From a virus, in the IMG/VR virus record IMGVR_UViG_3300046734_000173, positions 1 through 33,234 of that record: DNA of 33,234 nt; one strand, 5' to 3'. Every line of letters starts with the position of its first letter. Positions within the stretch are counted from its first letter, which is position 1. Below the pieces are notes generated by a model, which worked only from the letters and a program-made list of their open reading frames with translations, did not search any database and was not told the origin of the DNA. Position numbers and translations under genes: made by a program. Of this stretch, positions 2,533 to 21,509 are shown piece by piece.

Positions 2533-4754
2533 TGGCAATAATAAAAGAAAAAAGACAAGTATCTTATGAAACTCGTATAGGAGTAAACAGAGGTACTAGC
2601 AAACCAGCAGAAGCACAAGCTGTCGTAGCCGATAGTTATGGTTCATTATTTGCAGACGCTTCAAAATTTGCTTATAACAGAGCAATAGAAAATGGAAAAA
2701 TGGAAGCGTTAGAACGTGCTGAATCACAATCTTTTACTACACAAGACATTGATTTAGGTAATGGCAATACAACCAAAATGCCTGTTAAGTATACTGAAAG
2801 AACAGATTTAGGACGTACAGGTAACAAAGAATATGCAAGGTTAATGAATGCTAAATATAACAAGTCGCTTAATAATTCTTTAGATAATCTTATTTTAGAT
2901 GAAAGAAATTCAGCACAAATGTTAGAAATATCAAAAGGTGAGTTTAACAAAAAGATTAGATCAAAACTATCTTTAGTTTTTGAATCATTAGACCCAGACG
3001 ATAGAGCAAATGCAAAACTACATGCAGAATCTAAAATTGTAGAAAGTGGATTTTATGTAGATAAAACTCACAAATCGTCACAAGTGCAACAAGACAAACT
3101 ATTATTTAACCAACAATCAAGTAACATCTTGCTAAATGCTGCAACAGAATATTATGCGTATAAAGACAGACAAACATTAAATTTAAGAATAAAAGAACTA
3201 CAAGATGAAAAAGACTTGTATCGAAGTCGTATGTCTAATAATGACTTAAACAATATGTATGATAACAAAATAAATAGATTAAATGCTAAAGCAGATATAT
3301 ATGATTTACTTGATATAAATATTTCAGACATGATGGACTTATCAAATTTAAATTCTACAAACGCTAAAACAATGAAAAAGATAACAGAATTTTTTTCATC
3401 AAACGGCGTTAACGATTTAAAGATAAACAATAAAGTTATTACAAAAGAGCAAGTTCTTTCAAAGATAAAGGGAGACAAAACCAAAATTTTTCAAGAATTA
3501 GCTTTAGAGTATCAAGCTTTTCAAAAAGAATACGCAACTAAATATCAAGCTTCTTTAAGTTTTATAAAGGTAAACAACGCAATAATTAAAGACCAAGCTA
3601 GTGATTTAACTAATGATAAAATAAAAACTGTTTTGAATAGCCCAGAGTTTTTAGAACAAATATATGAAACATATGCTATGCAAACAGACAAAACCGAATC
3701 ATACAAACAAGCTCAACAGAGTGGATCTATAATGGATTTTTATGGGTATTTATATAAAAACAAAAATGTGCATGCTTTACCACCAGCTGTTATTAATACA
3801 ATAGTTGGTGCAGCAAAAAGCAGAAATGTAGATGTTCTTTCAGGATATGCCCCTTTAATACAGTTTATGGGAGAAAATAGCCAATACATGAAAGAAAACG
3901 GATTCGACAGCGAACAGTCAGATTTGATAAGCGACTTAGCAGAAGTGCCAAATGCAAGCCCAGATAACTATAGACTTGTTATGGACAAATTTGATTCTGT
4001 TAGAAACGATAAAGAGTTAACAGAAATGTATTCATTAGGATTAACTAATGTATTTAATAAAACACAAGGAATAAAGGGTGAGTTTAAAGGTGTAAGTGAT
4101 TTTAATAATTATTTGAGTAAACAAGTAAATGATCTAAGAGGAATAGGCGATATAAGTGATGATAGTGAAAATGAAAGATTCGGACATTTAGTTGCATTTA
4201 AAATAAAAAAGGCAGTAATGGACAGAATAGAAGCTTCAAATAGATTTCCAACAAAAAACAAAGTACAACAATATATATTTGAAGAGGGACAAAATTTAAT
4301 AAAAGAACAAAATATTGGCAAATCGGTAATAGGGTTTAGCCCTTTGGCTTTAGGGGGTTCATATATAACAGACACAGAAACCTTGATGACTACAACAACT
4401 CTTATGGAAAACCCACCAGATAGAATACATTCAGAAGCATTTACTGATGGAGGCTTTGCAGTAACTAAATTTATGAATACTAAAATAAACGGTATGATTA
4501 AAACAAAAAAAGAATTTGGTTCAGACGCTGTAACAGAAAGTTTATCAGAACCAAAAGGATATAACCCAGCATTAAGCAGATATAAACTTTATCCATTAGA
4601 AAATGAAGACGGAACATTTGATTATCAAGTAATACACATTGGTAAAAATGTTTTTGAACCTACGCTGTTAAGAGATGAAGTCGGAGACCCTCTAATAATT
4701 ACAGTAGAAGAGTTTGGGAAAATAGCAGAATCATTACAAAACAATGGCAACTAA
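2532..4754 (+). CDS. Internal virion protein, T7 gp15-like
   Basis: The protein has 740 residues (T7 gp15 has 747) and lies between the gp14-like and gp16-like genes. It is largely helical and polar, rich in Lys, Asn, Asp and Glu, with no signal peptide or membrane segment. That suits a core protein which, in T7, forms the periplasmic part of the DNA ejection tube together with gp16. No enzymatic motif is visible. The start is joined to the upstream stop (TAATG) and the 3' end overlaps the gp16-like gene by 11 bases. The call is by synteny and size. The sequence itself is not recognisably similar to T7 by eye. Confidence 0.7.
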   Translation: MAIIKEKRQVSYETRIGVNRGTSKPAEAQAVVADSYGSLFADASKFAYNRAIENGKMEALERAESQSFTTQDIDLGNGNTTKMPVKYTERTDLGRTGNKEYARLMNAKYNKSLNNSLDNLILDERNSAQMLEISKGEFNKKIRSKLSLVFESLDPDDRANAKLHAESKIVESGFYVDKTHKSSQVQQDKLLFNQQSSNILLNAATEYYAYKDRQTLNLRIKELQDEKDLYRSRMSNNDLNNMYDNKINRLNAKADIYDLLDINISDMMDLSNLNSTNAKTMKKITEFFSSNGVNDLKINNKVITKEQVLSKIKGDKTKIFQELALEYQAFQKEYATKYQASLSFIKVNNAIIKDQASDLTNDKIKTVLNSPEFLEQIYETYAMQTDKTESYKQAQQSGSIMDFYGYLYKNKNVHALPPAVINTIVGAAKSRNVDVLSGYAPLIQFMGENSQYMKENGFDSEQSDLISDLAEVPNASPDNYRLVMDKFDSVRNDKELTEMYSLGLTNVFNKTQGIKGEFKGVSDFNNYLSKQVNDLRGIGDISDDSENERFGHLVAFKIKKAVMDRIEASNRFPTKNKVQQYIFEEGQNLIKEQNIGKSVIGFSPLALGGSYITDTETLMTTTTLMENPPDRIHSEAFTDGGFAVTKFMNTKINGMIKTKKEFGSDAVTESLSEPKGYNPALSRYKLYPLENEDGTFDYQVIHIGKNVFEPTLLRDEVGDPLIITVEEFGKIAESLQNNGN

Positions 4755-12425: not shown

Positions 12426-13109
12426 GTGGGACTTACAATATTATATCTAGTTTATTTTTTACTAGCACTTTATTCTTTTATAAAACTATCTTGGTTACAA
12501 CTTTTATACACATACATACTCTTTTACTTTTTACTAGAATTTACTATGAGTTTGTTTATACACAGATGGGCTACACATAATCTATGGAATCCACCAGTAT
12601 GGTTTCAAAACATAATGAGTGTAGTATCTATGACTGCATTAATTGGAACACCAATATCGTATAGTGCGTGGCATAGAAACCACCATAAACACTCAGACAC
12701 AGATAAAGACCCTCATAGTCCTAAGCACAAAAACTGGTTCAATATTATATTTAGAACACATGAACAAGAATATAATATTAAACTTGTTACAGATAGACTA
12801 AGAAATAAATGGCAATTATTTTTAACTAAATATGAAACAACGTTGGTTTACGTGTTTAATGCTATTCTTTTCTTAGTCCTGCCAACTGCATGGTTTCTTA
12901 CATGGGCTACTGCTGTAGCTATGACTACGTTCTGGGTAATGCTAGTTACAGGTATTATGTGCCACACAGACAAGGTAAGGGATGTACCTTACATGTATCC
13001 CTTTGCATTTTCTGAATCATTTCATAAACAACATCACATCGAACCACAACTTAAACATTGTAAGTTTGACCCATATGTCTGGTTAATTAAAAGATTAGGT
13101 TGGGCATGA
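12426..13109 (+). CDS. Membrane fatty acid desaturase, first of two
   Basis: The protein has 227 residues and all three histidine boxes of membrane di-iron desaturases: HRWATH (46-51), HRNHH (83-87, followed by KHSDTDKDPHSP as in delta-9-type enzymes) and HKQHH (200-204). Four hydrophobic segments (about 2-20, 24-45, 140-157, 160-179) place the boxes on the cytoplasmic face. Such enzymes use O2 and electrons from a ferredoxin or cytochrome b5 to introduce a double bond in an acyl chain, so a host donor is needed. It is shorter than usual (typically 270-320), and the third box lacks the usual GEGWHNYHH context. The GTG start lies one base after the upstream stop. It is probably an auxiliary metabolic gene acting on host membrane lipids. 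Confidence 0.85.
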   Translation: MGLTILYLVYFLLALYSFIKLSWLQLLYTYILFYFLLEFTMSLFIHRWATHNLWNPPVWFQNIMSVVSMTALIGTPISYSAWHRNHHKHSDTDKDPHSPKHKNWFNIIFRTHEQEYNIKLVTDRLRNKWQLFLTKYETTLVYVFNAILFLVLPTAWFLTWATAVAMTTFWVMLVTGIMCHTDKVRDVPYMYPFAFSESFHKQHHIEPQLKHCKFDPYVWLIKRLGWA

Positions 13110-13852
13110 ATCACGCTATTAAGATACAACTACTAGCACTTACCAATGTATTAATATCTATTTGGGCGTGTATTACATATCCTGAGTACATAATCTATGG
13201 GTTAATTGGATGGGCATTTGTAAATATATTCTCAACTAACATAGCTATACATAGATATATGAGCCATAGATCATTTGAAACTACACCAATTAAAGCTAAG
13301 ATACTTAAATATCTTACAGTCATATCAGCATTTGGAAGTCCACTATCATGGACAGCACAACACAGATATCATCATAAATACTCTGGACATCCTACAGATG
13401 ACAACCAATCACCTGCAAGAATAGGTTATCTAAGAGCGTGGCTTACATTATATGATCATATAACTGTACCCAAAGTCATGGTCAAAGACATACTTAAAGA
13501 CAAAGATTATATGTTTATCACTAGGAATTATTGGGCTTTACTGTTTACATATGTATTAATTTTGTACACAATTAATCCTATGTTAGGACTATTTTTATTT
13601 TCATTTCCATGTGCATGTATTTATGTAGTAGCTGGAGCATTTGGTGTTATACCTCATAGCAAACATTTTGGATATAAAGTAGTAGAATCTAAACCAAATT
13701 GCACAGCAGTCAACAGTCCATTGACATCATTAATTAGCTGGGGTGAGGGTTGGCATAACTATCATCATACTAAGTCAAAGGACTATAGACATGGACACAA
13801 ATGGTGGGAGCTAGATCCTCCTGCATTTTTTATAGAAAGGATTTTTAAATGA
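13106..13852 (+). CDS. Membrane fatty acid desaturase, second of two
   Basis: The protein has 248 residues. Boxes are HRYMSH (49-54), HRYHH (86-90) and the classical GEGWHNYHH (third box at 217-221), followed by a C-terminal WELDPPAFFIERIFK-type ending seen in delta-9 acyl desaturases. Four hydrophobic segments are visible (about 7-25, 28-47, 143-158, 160-183). ATG 13106 is chosen because it overlaps the upstream TGA as ATGA, a coupled start; an in-frame TTG at 13100 is less likely. It shares the box layout with the upstream enzyme but differs in the third box and flanks, suggesting an old duplication or two acquisitions. Cyanophages are known to carry lipid desaturases, but two in a row in a T7-like phage this small is notable. 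Confidence 0.92.
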   Translation: MNHAIKIQLLALTNVLISIWACITYPEYIIYGLIGWAFVNIFSTNIAIHRYMSHRSFETTPIKAKILKYLTVISAFGSPLSWTAQHRYHHKYSGHPTDDNQSPARIGYLRAWLTLYDHITVPKVMVKDILKDKDYMFITRNYWALLFTYVLILYTINPMLGLFLFSFPCACIYVVAGAFGVIPHSKHFGYKVVESKPNCTAVNSPLTSLISWGEGWHNYHHTKSKDYRHGHKWWELDPPAFFIERIFK

Positions 13853-17072: not shown

Positions 17073-17363
17073 TTACTTTTCAAAAATAGTCCAGTCAACG
17101 ACGTCGCCTGTCTCTTGCTCATACCATTTCAATAGTTCTAATTCAGAGCAAAACATCTTTTCAAAACTACGCCTACCCATACCATGGAAACCTGTATTAC
17201 CCCTATGATGTTCGGTACATAGTGGTATACATTTTACATTACGCTGAGACATGCCCATAGAAGCCCTTAAATGGTGTATTTCTGTCCTTGTTTTCTGCGT
17301 TAGACTATAACGCCTACAGACTACACAACCATACTCTGATTGGCGTCTGTAAACGTTTTGCAT
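17073..17363 (-). CDS. Ref-like HNH nuclease (RecA-dependent type)
   Basis: From ATG at 17363 the protein has 96 residues; an in-frame TTG at 17381 would add six. It has CVVC (Cys13, Cys16), a central HH (30-31), CIPLC (45, 49), EHH (51-53) and the glycine-rich GNTGFHGMGRRSFEKMF segment. This is the zinc-bound HNH arrangement of the P1 Ref family, which cuts DNA at RecA-made displacement loops. As the last gene of the leftward unit, with SSB, annealing protein and exonuclease in the same operon, it may process recombination intermediates or break host DNA. Holding in the Ref family is by motif pattern. A generic HNH endonuclease is the alternative. Confidence 0.75.
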   Translation of the reverse strand: MQNVYRRQSEYGCVVCRRYSLTQKTRTEIHHLRASMGMSQRNVKCIPLCTEHHRGNTGFHGMGRRSFEKMFCSELELLKWYEQETGDVVDWTIFEK

Positions 17364-17373
17364 TTCTTTCTTT

Positions 17374-17604
17374 TTATTCAACTTTTTCTAGATTTCTTAC
17401 ACTAAAGTCTTTGTTCTTTGTTAGAAAACCATAATGACACAATCTTTCTATAACAATTTGTGCCTGACTTCTGTATCTAAAATCCATATGTTTGGCTACT
17501 TCAAGTACTGTTGGACTAAAGCCGTGCTTGTCAATGTATTCATTAACAAATAGCAATACTTTGTTTTGATTTTCCGTAAGCCATTTTCCATTAATTTCTA
17601 TCAT
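17374..17604 (-). CDS. LexA-type winged-helix DNA-binding protein (DNA-binding domain only)
   Basis: The protein has 76 residues, nearly all of it resembling the N-terminal DNA-binding domain of LexA: LTENQNKVLLFVNEYIDKHG (9-28), the turn FSPTVLEVAKHMDF (29-42) and the recognition and wing part (RSQAQIVIERLCHYGFL). The LexA protease and dimerisation domain is absent, so it cannot self-cleave. It would act as a small regulator or an antagonist of host LexA. The start overlaps the SSB stop (TAATG). It is the only obvious transcription factor in the genome and so a candidate to bind the dyads at 23109-23130 and 23791-23808. Confidence 0.7.
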   Translation of the reverse strand: MIEINGKWLTENQNKVLLFVNEYIDKHGFSPTVLEVAKHMDFRYRSQAQIVIERLCHYGFLTKNKDFSVRNLEKVE

Positions 17605-19006: not shown

Positions 19007-19840
19007 TTATTTATCAATAGTTATCACTATTGAGTTTCTTTTGTTTCTAGTAGCTGATATACCATGACCAGTTACTTTCCTTACATCGTTTTCAATCATA
19101 GACTTTAGCTCATCATTGAGTTCTTTTGTTTTTCTGTACTCTGGTGTGCTAAGTTCTACTTCTTTTACACGCTGTTTACATTTCTTATATTCTTTAGCTA
19201 CTGATTCCCATTGTTTATTTTCTGTATAGTCAATAGTTCTCATGCCATTTAATATAATATTTTTTGGTGTCTTGTCATCAAAGATATCAAACCCTGTTGG
19301 GTCTTCATTTTTTTCTACGTAGTACCAAAAAGCTTTTTCTCTTTTGTAAAGCTCATTACAAAATGCAGTATCAATATCTACTGTCATTGATTCATGTTTT
19401 GCATTACCAAAGATTACACTTAATATCATGTAGTCAATCTTCTTTGTAGCTAATGGGTGTGTACCATTGTCTACTGTATGATTAAATAACATCATGTAGT
19501 GATTCAGTTGTGCATGATATTGTTCTGCAATAGAATAAATATCACGCCTATCATGAGTATGTTTACACTCAACAGGTATTCCGCCAGATGTTATAGCGTC
19601 CATTTGCCCAGTCATAAACTCATGTTGTGGAAGATCAATTGATTGTTTGTATGTAACTCCTAAATCATGTGCCATAAAATCTAGGTTTAGTTTTTCTGTA
19701 GCGATACCAATCTGTACTGGTACAACCCATGACAAATCTTCAGGTTCAGCTATGCCACGTTTGATTCTGTTTAAGTCAAGCCAGTCGCCATTATAAATTT
19801 TGTTAGCGTCTGACCCACCTATGCCTTTTGTTCTATCCAT
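19007..19840 (-). CDS. YqaJ-type exonuclease (lambda Exo family)
   Basis: The protein has 277 residues. It has the opening GIGGSD (6-11), Glu49 in a GIATEKLNLDF helix, the PD-(D/E)XK core with GQMDAI (Asp81) and ECK (Glu91, Lys93), and the Q-containing helix EQYHAQLNHYM. That is the full set for the YqaJ/lambda-exonuclease fold, which degrades one strand of linear duplex DNA and works with an annealing protein. Its partner is the next gene downstream. The start overlaps the end of the gene at 19833-20183 and has AAGGAG at good distance. Confidence 0.88.
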   Translation of the reverse strand: MDRTKGIGGSDANKIYNGDWLDLNRIKRGIAEPEDLSWVVPVQIGIATEKLNLDFMAHDLGVTYKQSIDLPQHEFMTGQMDAITSGGIPVECKHTHDRRDIYSIAEQYHAQLNHYMMLFNHTVDNGTHPLATKKIDYMILSVIFGNAKHESMTVDIDTAFCNELYKREKAFWYYVEKNEDPTGFDIFDDKTPKNIILNGMRTIDYTENKQWESVAKEYKKCKQRVKEVELSTPEYRKTKELNDELKSMIENDVRKVTGHGISATRNKRNSIVITIDK

Positions 19841-20183
19841 TGTTATACTCCTTTAAATATTTATTTACTGGAAACCCATTGACCAGATGATTCTCATATG
19901 TGCAGACAATCTGCAATTTAGATATGTACCATGAGCTATGTTGTTTGTGTATTGGTTCACACTTTTGTACGAACTCGCTTGGTATAGGTAACCTTGCATA
20001 TTTATAATTAGCTACAACATCTCTCATAACATCAGACATAATAAAGTTTGGATATTTATTTAAGACTTCGAAGTACATATGCAATCCTAAATCCGTAGGT
20101 ATCTTTACTTGAAATGTTTCAGCTACAGTCTGTAAACACAAAGCAATATGTCCGTCTGATTTATCAGTCAACAGTTTTTTCAT
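19833..20183 (-). CDS. Possible replication accessory protein (helicase-loader-like)
   Basis: From ATG 20183, one base after the stop of the DnaT-like gene, the protein has 116 residues. It opens MKKLLTDKSDG and has a helical middle with KIPTDLGLHMYFEVLNKYP, then SDVMRDVVANYKYARLPIPSEF. That last pattern resembles small helicase-loader or phage P-like proteins in general shape, but the match is loose. The frame is open further upstream to TTG 20447 (or ATG 20441), with an AGGAG 7 bases before the TTG. That would make 204 residues and overlap the DnaT-like gene by 263 bases. I prefer the short form because third-position use in the overlap favours the other frame. Confidence 0.5.
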   Translation of the reverse strand: MKKLLTDKSDGHIALCLQTVAETFQVKIPTDLGLHMYFEVLNKYPNFIMSDVMRDVVANYKYARLPIPSEFVQKCEPIHKQHSSWYISKLQIVCTYENHLVNGFPVNKYLKEYNNG

Positions 20184-20184
20184 T

Positions 20185-20541
20185 TCATGAAACACTTTTG
20201 ATATGTTTGTGTTGTATTCTAATTTTATTATGCTCCTCTTCTGTATTTGTTTTTCCATTTCTTTGGTCAATGATTCCAGACATACGGTTTCTTTGTTCCG
20301 AAACAGTTTCGGTATTGATTCTAGTATTTCTTTCTCTATTCCATTTTGCATTCTGTCTGCACCACGCTCTGAATTTGACATTCCAGTTAGCGTAAGCTCC
20401 TCCAGTTGAGAGGTAATAGTCTTTAAATTGTTCGACTTCATGTTCAATTTCTATCTCCTGTCCGAATCTATCTTCGCACTCTTGTTTTATTCTGTCGGTT
20501 GGTTGCCAATCTTCCGTCATAATTACTCTATCAATTTTCAT
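20185..20541 (-). CDS. DnaT-like (primosomal) replication protein
   Basis: The protein has 118 residues. Residues 11-66 read DWQPTDRIKQECEDRF, then FKDYYLSTGGAYANW and FRAWCRQNAK. This is the F..YW..G....DW...F..W pattern of the DnaT-type DNA-binding domain found in phage initiator proteins that help load the host replicative helicase. The second half (67-118) is Arg, Asn and Thr-rich and probably disordered. It is the first gene after the 400-bp hairpin array, which is where an initiator gene would sit beside its origin. A GGAG precedes the start. Confidence 0.6.
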   Translation of the reverse strand: MKIDRVIMTEDWQPTDRIKQECEDRFGQEIEIEHEVEQFKDYYLSTGGAYANWNVKFRAWCRQNAKWNRERNTRINTETVSEQRNRMSGIIDQRNGKTNTEEEHNKIRIQHKHIKSVS

Positions 20542-20943
20542 ATTTGCTCCAGATGTACACCCACGTATGTCAGTACATGGGTATATAACATCTCGTTATT
20601 TCTATACACCCTGTATAGAATTCATTAAAGATAGATAAGCTTTTGTAACTTAAGGCTAGCGACTAATAAAAGTCTGACACTTTTTACGGTACCACCTATC
20701 TATCCCCTGTCTAAGAACATAGCCATATAAACTTAGACAATTCATTAAGGATAGATAAGATATCGATACCACGTTCATCCTATCTATCCCATACTCATGT
20801 CCATTATATCCCCATGAGTAATTCATTAAGGATAGATACAAGGTACGAACAGCTCGACTTAGATTTCAATAATCCTTTGCAAGACACATTCAGTATTAAT
20901 ATCTATCCCAACATGCTGAGTAACAGTACCTTACTCCTCAGAC
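20542..20943. other. 402-bp non-coding interval within the leftward unit
   Basis: There is no credible gene here. The frame at 20656-20841 on the minus strand only translates the repeated arms (YLSLMN occurs twice). A separate imperfect dyad lies at about 20556-20585 (arms TACACCCA and TGGGTATA), just upstream of the main hairpin array, and several six-base palindromes such as AAGCTT, CTTAAG, GCTAGC and GGTACC lie in the first spacer. It separates two minus-strand genes, so it can act either as DNA (origin, partition) or as part of the mRNA. Confidence 0.85.
20600..20941. repeat. Array of four stem-loop units with shared outer arms and different, fully paired inner stems
   Basis: The unit is TATCTATCC, a variable stem-loop, ATTCATTAA, GGATAGATA. 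The outer arms pair with each other. Inner stems pair perfectly but differ in sequence: TCTATACA/TGTATAGA (20601-20619), TGTCTAAG/CTTAGACA (20708-20739), TACTCATG/CATGAGTA (20792-20820) and GAGTAA/TTACTC (20918-20936). The first unit lacks the left outer arm and the fourth lacks the right one, marking the array edges. Spacers between units are 59, 23 and 61 bp. Different sequences with preserved pairing mean the fold is what is conserved. Its place beside a DnaT-like gene suggests an origin of replication. Confidence 0.85.
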
Positions 20944-21339
20944 TTACAGTTCGTATGTTCTGTATACCTCCACGTAGTTTTCATAAACTTCTATATCAGC
21001 AGTAAAGTCATAGCCGTCAGCAAGACTATTACGTGTCTCAAAAAATTTAGGTTTGTTTCTGTACTGCATATACATTCTACCATAGTACGCTTTGTAGTTG
21101 TTGTTTAATTTGAATATATCTCCAACAGTATCTTCATCTCTATGCCACCTGATGATACTCAGAATATCCTCAATGGAATATCTGTTACGTTTTTTAGCAG
21201 ATTCATCAGCGTACCTGACAATCAAAGCAAATACTTTTGGATTGTTCTTGTGAAAATTAGCAAAGTCATTTGGTTTAACCAACTGATCTATTTTTTTATT
21301 TTCCATTTCACCTATTAACATGTTCTTAAGTCTACCCAT
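20944..21339 (-). CDS. Conserved phage protein of unknown function
   Basis: The protein has 131 residues. It carries a set of conserved features met in many phage genomes: PNDFANFHKNNPKVFALIVRYA (24-45), IRWHRDE (63-69), FKLNNNYKAYYGRMYMQY and a final FFETRNSLADGYDF. The family is widespread beside DNA metabolism genes, without known activity. There are no catalytic or membrane motifs. A clear GAGGAAAG lies 5-6 bases before the ATG. Its stop lies just after the last unit of the hairpin array. Confidence 0.75.
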   Translation of the reverse strand: MGRLKNMLIGEMENKKIDQLVKPNDFANFHKNNPKVFALIVRYADESAKKRNRYSIEDILSIIRWHRDEDTVGDIFKLNNNYKAYYGRMYMQYRNKPKFFETRNSLADGYDFTADIEVYENYVEVYRTYEL

Positions 21340-21341
21340 TT

Positions 21342-21509
21342 TTATCTTTCCTCGTGATGTTGTTCCATTAAATAATCAGATACGCATATAGCTTTCGACA
21401 ATCTTTTCTTTATTGTTCCAAGATGTTTATACTTATCAACCCATTTATACACAACGTACAAAGTGTGTGCGTCCAACGAACCGTATTCCAATATTGTTTC
21501 TTTCTTCAT
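21342..21509 (-). CDS. Small unknown protein
   Basis: The protein has 55 residues, beginning MKKETILEYGSLDAHTL and ending LMEQHHEER. It is mostly helical and basic in the middle (YKWVDKYKHLGTIKKRLSKA), with an organisation like a short DNA-binding helical protein, but no family is recognised. It is supported by AGGAG 5 bases before the ATG, and by the fact that its last codons form the ribosome-binding site of the next gene. It fills the space between two genes exactly. Confidence 0.7.
   Translation of the reverse strand: MKKETILEYGSLDAHTLYVVYKWVDKYKHLGTIKKRLSKAICVSDYLMEQHHEER

Follow-up and report, generated by a model that had tools for sequence, protein, structure and literature searches.

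A hypervariable array of structured hairpin cassettes, apparently exchanged between phages, next to a DnaT-like gene

The 33,234-nucleotide stretch of viral DNA analyzed here (the window; positions 1 to 33,234 of IMG/VR record IMGVR_UViG_3300046734_000173) carries at 20601–20941 an array of hairpins, set between a 131-aa gene just upstream (phrog_13625, 20944–21339) and a DnaT-like gene downstream (20185–20541; PF17948 at 31.9 bits with a cut-off of 25; phrog_1408, replication initiation). Both genes lie on the minus strand, which is also the sense of the array. Read along that strand, the first half comprises an end hairpin, an A hairpin of 79 nt, the linker TTAATGAATT, a B hairpin, an A hairpin of 41 nt and again TTAATGAATT; the second half comprises a B hairpin, an A hairpin of 77 nt, TTAATGAATT and a closing end hairpin. 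A hairpins take the form GGATAGATAGG-variable-CCTATCTATCC, with the common base GGATAG/CTATC(C/T) and differing interiors, and are followed by TTAATG|AATT and then usually by a B hairpin.

The end hairpin that serves as upstream anchor (CTGAG...CTCAG / GAGTAA...TTACTC, 20916–20941) has similar counterparts in loci L001–L006, where the 131-aa gene is likewise kept beside the array. It is followed on the minus strand by the first A hairpin (class A44, 20830–20908, arms GGATAGATAT / GTATCTATCC), a linker (20820–20829) and a class B25 hairpin (TACTCATG / CATGAGTA, 20792–20820) with a near-identical unit in L054. The second A hairpin (20749–20789), assigned at 75% identity to class A32, has 14 contiguous pairs, and the payload of its counterpart in L003 is letter-identical to one in L077, a member of another phage group. 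After the next linker (20739–20748) comes a B hairpin at 20708–20739 (TGTCTAAG / CTTAGACA) that is found identically in L003 and L150, while its loop, TTTATATGGCTATGTT, sits on a different stem (GTGTAGG / CCTACAC) in L070, L160 and L210. The third A hairpin (20629–20705, arms GGATAGATAGGT / GCTTATCTATCT) and the last linker (20619–20628) lead to the downstream anchor TCTATACA-GGG-TGTATAGA at 20601–20619, variants of which close several other arrays, directly after their final A hairpin.

Elsewhere in the window, the terminase shares 80% identity with its counterpart in Pelagibacter phage EXVC031P Hodr, so the host is likely to be SAR11. The DnaT-like reading frame overlaps the next one (19833–20447, minus strand) by up to about 260 nt in a different frame; this 204-aa frame is kept in L001–L006, and either both frames may code over a long stretch or the second gene may begin later. 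On the plus strand, two neighbouring fatty acid desaturase genes with a slight overlap (12426–13109 and 13100–13852; PF00487 at 39.5 and 61.3 bits) could, in this small phage, be auxiliary metabolic genes that change host lipids. A gene of the RecA-dependent nuclease family (17073–17381, minus strand; PF16786, 30.5 bits over 26.9) lies in one gene block with genes for a single-stranded DNA-binding protein (SSB) and a RecE-like exonuclease.

The first-pass annotation of this DNA correctly located the arms, the constant ATTCATTAA and the inner stems that pair. Using a strict definition (a hairpin starting with GG, with 10 of 10 standard arm pairs, ending at a TTAATGAAT-like linker), we counted three such hairpins in the window, compared to none in 29 of 30 first-order Markov resamplings and one in the other. 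Over the 560 kb of 60 array loci, which were picked for having the motif, there were 112 hairpins with linker versus 0 in the reversed sequence, and each of 14 loci distantly related to that of the 131-aa gene (L012–L025) had none. The hairpins are therefore real and beyond chance. Their register differs from that first proposed, in which TATCTATCC paired with GGATAGATA past an inner stem. Among 30 distinct pairs of neighbouring hairpins from many contigs, the 3′ arm matched its own upstream arm better in 18 cases, equally well in 10 and worse in two. For the window alone the two folds compete, with the minimum free energy structure using the enclosing pairing and the centroid forming a chain of separate hairpins, yet the comparison favours the chain as the conserved fold, and we rejected the enclosing fold in that role. 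What had been described as four like units are instead three A and two inner B hairpins in alternation, plus one hairpin at each end; GAGTAA/TTACTC is part of the end hairpin beside the 131-aa gene and has an arm on one side only. Of 29 B segments, 11 had a terminal stem at p ≤ 0.01. A coding role was also considered, as a 61-aa frame spans the window array, and was set aside on finding by eye that other cassettes have stops in that frame.

Searching with the 131-aa gene yielded 25 loci, ten of which (L001–L010) are 74–100% identical. The array in L001 and L002 is the same as that in the window, while L003 has two A hairpins and L004–L006 have one each; between the window, L003 and L004, array interiors measure 287, 156 and 47 bp with flanks that are 88–98% identical. 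Unit number and kind thus vary at this locus next to nearly unchanged genes. The remaining four loci (L007–L010) have a different linker and altered but compensated arms, such as GGATAGCGA/TCGCTATCC and GGATAGACAGG/CCTGTCTATCC. Hodr, a cultured relative, has no array here, its homologue of the 131-aa gene overlapping the next gene, and its whole genome contains no hairpin-linker site by the strict test; a relaxed test gave two sites, compared with 2, 1 and 0 in three bacterial pieces. The units differ chiefly through exchange of whole hairpins, to which compensatory arm changes are added. The array has apparently been swapped unit by unit between viruses, which would explain why its content outpaces the neighbouring genes. 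Two fully empty anchor-to-anchor sites were predicted, and neither had a match. Such exchange could be homologous recombination without selection for the payload.

To survey these elements more widely, IMG/VR was scanned with CTATCCTTAATGAAT (at least 119 stretches) and TCTATCCTTAATGAATT (83 stretches); some single matches were chance k-mers. Contigs that had the hairpin, pooled with the relatives found through the 131-aa gene, comprised 60 arrays with 103 A hairpins and 43 distinct unit strings, the 60 being a lower bound, given that L031, L165 and L167 were left out, and still including near-identical strains. Ten loci in all were excluded from the 60-array parse and what builds on it: seven second copies (L034, L037, L107, L144, L149, L152 and L166), L031 as a near copy of L026, L165 with two strict hairpins, and L167 with none. 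Three GTDB loci (L145–L147) were included in the count of mismatches in 73 hairpins described below and excluded from the fold comparison, array parse, motif-only covariation and filled/empty-site analysis. Hairpins not starting with GG were excluded from the mismatch count, fold comparison, array parse, boundary analysis and strict tests; arrays with other arms (L007–L010 and L082) fell outside the parser, which also missed the third A hairpin of the window. CTATCC+TTAATGAAT was the route to nearly all arrays in the sample; this string fixes part of the 3′ arm and of the linker, and hides variants. Of the 60 arrays, 30 had one detected A hairpin, 19 had two, 10 had three and 1 had five.

The arrays are confined and oriented. 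In 49 contigs scanned whole, sites with 0–1 mismatch formed one cluster per contig, some being single chance matches, and a few sites with two mismatches occurred elsewhere. The nearest upstream gene shared the strand of the array in 52 of 57 cases and the nearest downstream gene in 52 of 53, and only one linker site fell inside an open reading frame of at least 100 aa. Outside arrays, TTAATGAATT was found five times in 343 kb of 41 loci, with about 4.7 expected; as there is no excess, we discarded the linker as a general gene leader. Away from its main site, L053 has hairpin-like pieces (CCTTACGGGCGTAAGG at 3285 and GGGATAGATATACCAGA at 3970), and arrays may sometimes be split by genes. In reference collections, BLAST with one cassette against INPHARED returned two records, both with only a 21-base match, and the window array returned nine, all weak. 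For an array with a tRNA, the best 20 of 180 phage records and the best 20 of 206 plasmid records all aligned on the tRNA stretch, with no match covering 80% of the query among the matches listed. A second array gave eight records, one of which, MH327490, led to the B16 cassette described below. By the pieces tried, there was accordingly no array in INPHARED or PLSDB among the matches listed. A GTDB search with one 19-mer had three matches (Pseudomonas, Hymenobacter and Buchananbacteria), none with a strict hairpin, and we rejected a host origin on this count.

Parsing the 60 arrays at a 75% class limit gave 45 A and 26 B classes, of which short ones such as A8 may lump different payloads. One upstream end hairpin (..CTGGAGTATCTGTG) precedes five different first A classes (A5, A13, A14, A25 and A29), and four last A classes (A14, A17, A26 and A27) precede CCTTACGG(T/G)CGTAAGG. 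Comparison of filled and empty sites places the A unit, GGATAG...CTATCCTTAATG, after TTAATG and before AATT. For the B11 end GAGTATTAATG, the junction GAGTATTAATG|AATT is empty in L158 and filled in L114; for the B16 end C(G/A)CCTTAATG, the site is filled in L078 (CACCTTAATG) and empty in L028, L056, L091, L211 and others, with the form CGCCTTAATG|AATT in those four. Many units end in (TTA)ATG, and an ATG or GTG ending is frequent among the other left neighbours.

The B slots hold hairpins, a tRNA-Asn gene (four arrays: L077, L098, L113 and L211) or a mini-gene, B4, some 50 codons long (L068, L092, L128 and L137). Payloads also occur on different stems, such as TTA(C/G)GGC..AAAACTTCC..GAAGT in L053, L009 and L098, and B16, which recurs with different outer stems and which Marine virus AG-345-A17 and L214 contain with no array detected. 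B16 is an RNA-like unit of about 85 nt (L209:3260–3347 and L214:6175–6262, with copies in L028, L056, L078, L090, L091, L124, L157, L158 and L210–L213) in which CTTAATGAG and GCGT(A/T)CCAAATC are invariant and the outer stem changes. RNAalifold kept 11 pairs, three of them with two-sided changes, lending modest support to B16 as a candidate new RNA family. Among large payloads (classes A7 and A24; L056, L092, L128 and L044), TGTAATNACACAC and GGTGAGCTAGTG are conserved, and by eye CTAGC and GCTAG in some A7 and A24 payloads could pair across the inner stem as a pseudoknot.

We grouped the contigs by requiring two proteins in common, each 130 aa or longer and no less than 35% identical, which divided the 60 into groups of 33 and 24 with three singles; the two groups depend on this rule and on pieces that are mostly 4–15 kb, since a looser rule chained 59 of the 60 together. 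Under the chosen rule, the contigs with arrays come from two or more phage groups with few large proteins in common. Group 1 contains the window, with its RecE-like exonuclease, and L129, with a Sak-like annealing protein. In group 2, L113 encodes an HNH-family protein and an AAA ATPase resembling MoxR; the ATPase best matches those of Salmonella phages FSL SP-058 and kin (29% identity), which we take to be N4-like. At the 75% limit, 18 of 71 classes occur in at least two groups and 16 of 71 in both large groups, and at a stricter 90% limit with B units under 20 nt left out, 9 of 84 classes are still common to both.

The pairing within these hairpins bears on the molecule in which they fold. 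In 73 A hairpins with 10-bp arms, required to have Watson-Crick pairs at 8 or more of the 10 arm positions but without selection on mismatch type, the mismatches were 44 G·T, 3 A·C and 0 other. When arms were instead located by motif only (39 distinct pairs from 51 elements), 86.1% of positions 6–12 formed standard pairs, whereas reshuffling the 3′ arms 2000 times gave 75.5% (sd 1.6, maximum 80.6%). Besides 32 G·T (9 at position 12) and two A·C, this set had 36 mismatches of other kinds, 28 of them at positions 11–12, past the stem in many elements. On the array strand, B hairpins of the form RCCTA-NNNN-TAGGY had a GNRA loop (GCAA, GTGA or GCGA) in 18 of 18 cases from 11 distinct contexts; the control for this count is weak, as three such hairpins located outside arrays have GNRA on one of their strands too. 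Across distinct tetraloop hairpins, GNRA was found in 6 of 56 on the array strand and 0 of 56 on the complement. RNA folding z-scores (−4.3 for the sense strand and −5.0 for the complement) give no separation between strands. The pattern sought for an RNA element, compensatory pairing that tolerates G-U on one of the strands, was observed. The claim that the fold rather than the sequence is selected is therefore borne out by arm covariation, the bias of G·T over A·C and the GNRA loops, and for the same reasons the fold is most likely selected as RNA of gene sense. Single-stranded DNA of gene sense is the alternative, which would tolerate G·T too; neither tolerance of G·U nor GNRA-type loops are exclusive to RNA.

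The earlier proposal of an iteron-like origin fared less well. An origin of replication, or a site at which the DnaT-like protein assembles a primosome, would suit the window array, which lies about 60 bp upstream of that gene, and we consider it very improbable in view of the wider sample. PF17948 matches occur in 9 of 31 array contigs, four within about 0.7 kb of the array and five 1.7–3.9 kb away, and in group 2 contigs with flanks seen (e.g., L028, L030, L032, L048 and L113) an AAA ATPase gene is downstream instead. The cumulative GC skew does not reach a minimum at the array, and the slope of the curve shifts at about 17 kb and 23–24 kb, where gene direction changes. With array content and copy number not conserved and Hodr lacking the array, an origin at a fixed place beside its initiator was rejected.

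The description itself, namely the cassette structure, turnover, sharing and pairing, is nearly certain from the comparisons above. What it amounts to is more open to argument, and we give an even chance to its being a hypervariable, horizontally exchanged array of structured-RNA cassettes that act in trans and are read with the neighbouring genes. The array would probably be transcribed along with these presumably early genes as part of their transcript, a read-through suggested by the window array having no terminator-like site and no excess of promoter-like ones. The AU-rich TTAATGAATT linkers would leave the hairpins as separate RNA domains, perhaps processed out, with UUAAUGAAUU as a possible processing site. 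Payloads would be small structured RNAs acting in trans, as the recognizable slot contents, the tRNA and the mini-gene, would both give trans-acting products. Exchange may proceed by annealing of short shared stretches (CTATCTATCCTTAATGAATT and GGGATAGATAGG) between co-infecting phages, for which the RecE-like and Sak-like proteins of group 1 would be suitable enzymes, and the turnover would fit changing selection from hosts or rival phages. A bolder version, which we put forward tentatively and think somewhat doubtful, is a phage-borne library of trans-acting RNAs: one locus per phage, stacking interchangeable RNA domains along with tRNA and mini-genes, which pass from one phage group to another via the fixed junction TTAATG|AATT and turn over in an arms race against hosts or competing phages. 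It would in effect be a non-coding equivalent of integrons or defence islands that works without encoding a recombinase itself.

Two other explanations, both of which we judge unlikely, account for parts of the same evidence. The units might be selfish, non-autonomous mobile hairpins moving as single-stranded DNA with a logic like that of REP or IS200/IS605 elements, inserting after ATG and carrying TTAATG at their right end, with an enzyme from the host or another phage whose needs would keep the fold. The exact boundaries after TTAATG, the empty and filled sites, the units common to two phage groups and the use of a single strand in nearly all cases agree with such movement. Opposed to it, a Y1 transposase (PF01797) was absent from all 31 array contigs, with the control positive in 5 of 14, which also led us to reject a REP/RAYT or IS200/IS605 element as such; a tyrosine integrase (PF00589) was likewise absent from the 31 contigs, which may be fragments, with the control positive in 14 of 14 genomes. 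Furthermore, none of the three GTDB matches had a strict hairpin, the units are not scattered, given their single cluster per contig, and payloads vary freely, unlike copies of a single transposon. The hairpins might instead act in cis, stabilizing, spacing or processing the polycistronic mRNA of the neighbouring genes, a role that hairpins between genes have in other phages, in which case content would drift as any stable hairpin suffices. The intergenic and gene-sense placement of nearly all arrays, the AAGGAG or AGGAG resembling a ribosome site that abuts the last linker in several of them, and the constant end hairpins around a changing middle would be expected of such a segment, which nonetheless leaves unexplained the payload sequences kept and common to phage groups, the tRNA and mini-gene cassettes, and the large multi-stem payloads. 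Should the hairpins act as RNAs, these phages would harbour dozens of small structured RNAs in a rapidly changing stock, of which the B16 cassette, at least, is also present where no array was detected. Distinct phages would then have a new route for trading non-coding genes, and the payload classes would supply RNA families for testing. Selfish units, on the other hand, would represent a type of mobile hairpin in phages that fits none of the tested enzyme-bearing classes.

Among known systems, integrons keep ordered cassettes at a single locus, with turnover at constant junctions and folded sites. The array resembles them in these respects and differs in that its cassettes are mostly non-coding hairpins; with no integron-type tyrosine recombinase in the 31 array contigs, we rejected both an attC cassette array and the suggestion of attC-like recombinase sites, although the comparison to a working cassette array is still apt. 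CRISPR was rejected as well, as the units differ and share mainly arms and linker, and the sole Rfam 15 row for 20400–21100 of the window was below gathering (CRISPR-DR22, E 3.2). In Rfam searches of 18 whole loci, the three matches were tRNA only, and among 40 cut-out arrays at E up to 2, three rows were tRNA and the other seven below gathering. With a type III toxin-antitoxin system in mind, in which a ToxN/AbiQ-type endoRNase adjoins a tandem RNA array, PADLOC scanning of nine proteins (six from the window, two from L011 and one from L138) gave four weak rows, none named ToxN or AbiQ, and the only Cas-named similarity was a weak one of the RecE-like exonuclease to Cas4. In the window at 20300–21400, there were 0 terminator-like sites (0.3 expected) and two promoter-like sites (4.4 expected from shuffles, using the sigma-70 consensus only), which speaks against intrinsic terminators in the window array. 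Promoter early stem-loops (PeSLs) are reportedly composite promoter-terminator motifs, and an early promoter with a terminator-like stem-loop was not found in the window array, so a PeSL identity was also rejected.

Titles and the beginnings of abstracts, with most subscription papers and preprints outside this scope, gave no account of such an array, and several described elements share individual traits with it. PeSLs of T4-like phages are presented as intergenic stem-loop modules tied to shuffling (PMC4503421); as outlined there, they are short, intergenic and shuffled between related phages like the units here, which differ in that the window array shows neither terminator-like sites nor an excess of promoter-like ones, and in being themselves the exchanged cargo, in tandem. 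The start-associated sequences and their extended forms (SAS/ESAS) of Cluster K mycobacteriophages, according to the part of PMC3203893 drawn on, lie just upstream of non-structural genes and combine inverted arms with a variable spacer, mostly of 4–13 bp; the 13-bp start-associated repeat begins GGGATAGG and has 11–19 dispersed copies per genome. These phage repeats with inverted arms and a variable spacer are comparable to our units, in contrast to which they appear, from that part of the source, to lack the one clustered array, the larger and varied payloads and the alternating unit types. STAXI elements, in the excerpted account of PMC2864571, are tandem pseudoknots near SSB and antirestriction genes, judged likelier to act as RNA than as single-stranded DNA; the likeness is of tandem structured units near DNA-handling genes, and the difference that one pseudoknot is repeated in STAXI as portrayed there, whereas most units differ here. 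Hairpin-forming elements of mitochondrial DNA are, in the summary given by PMC2800124, intergenic and apparently repeated invaders, a trait they seem to share with our hairpins, and come as one or few types in many copies per genome, with no ordered array of different payloads mentioned in that summary. Taken as partial accounts, these four (PeSLs, ESAS, STAXI and the mitochondrial hairpin elements) appear to be the closest counterparts in print to the cassette array of the window.
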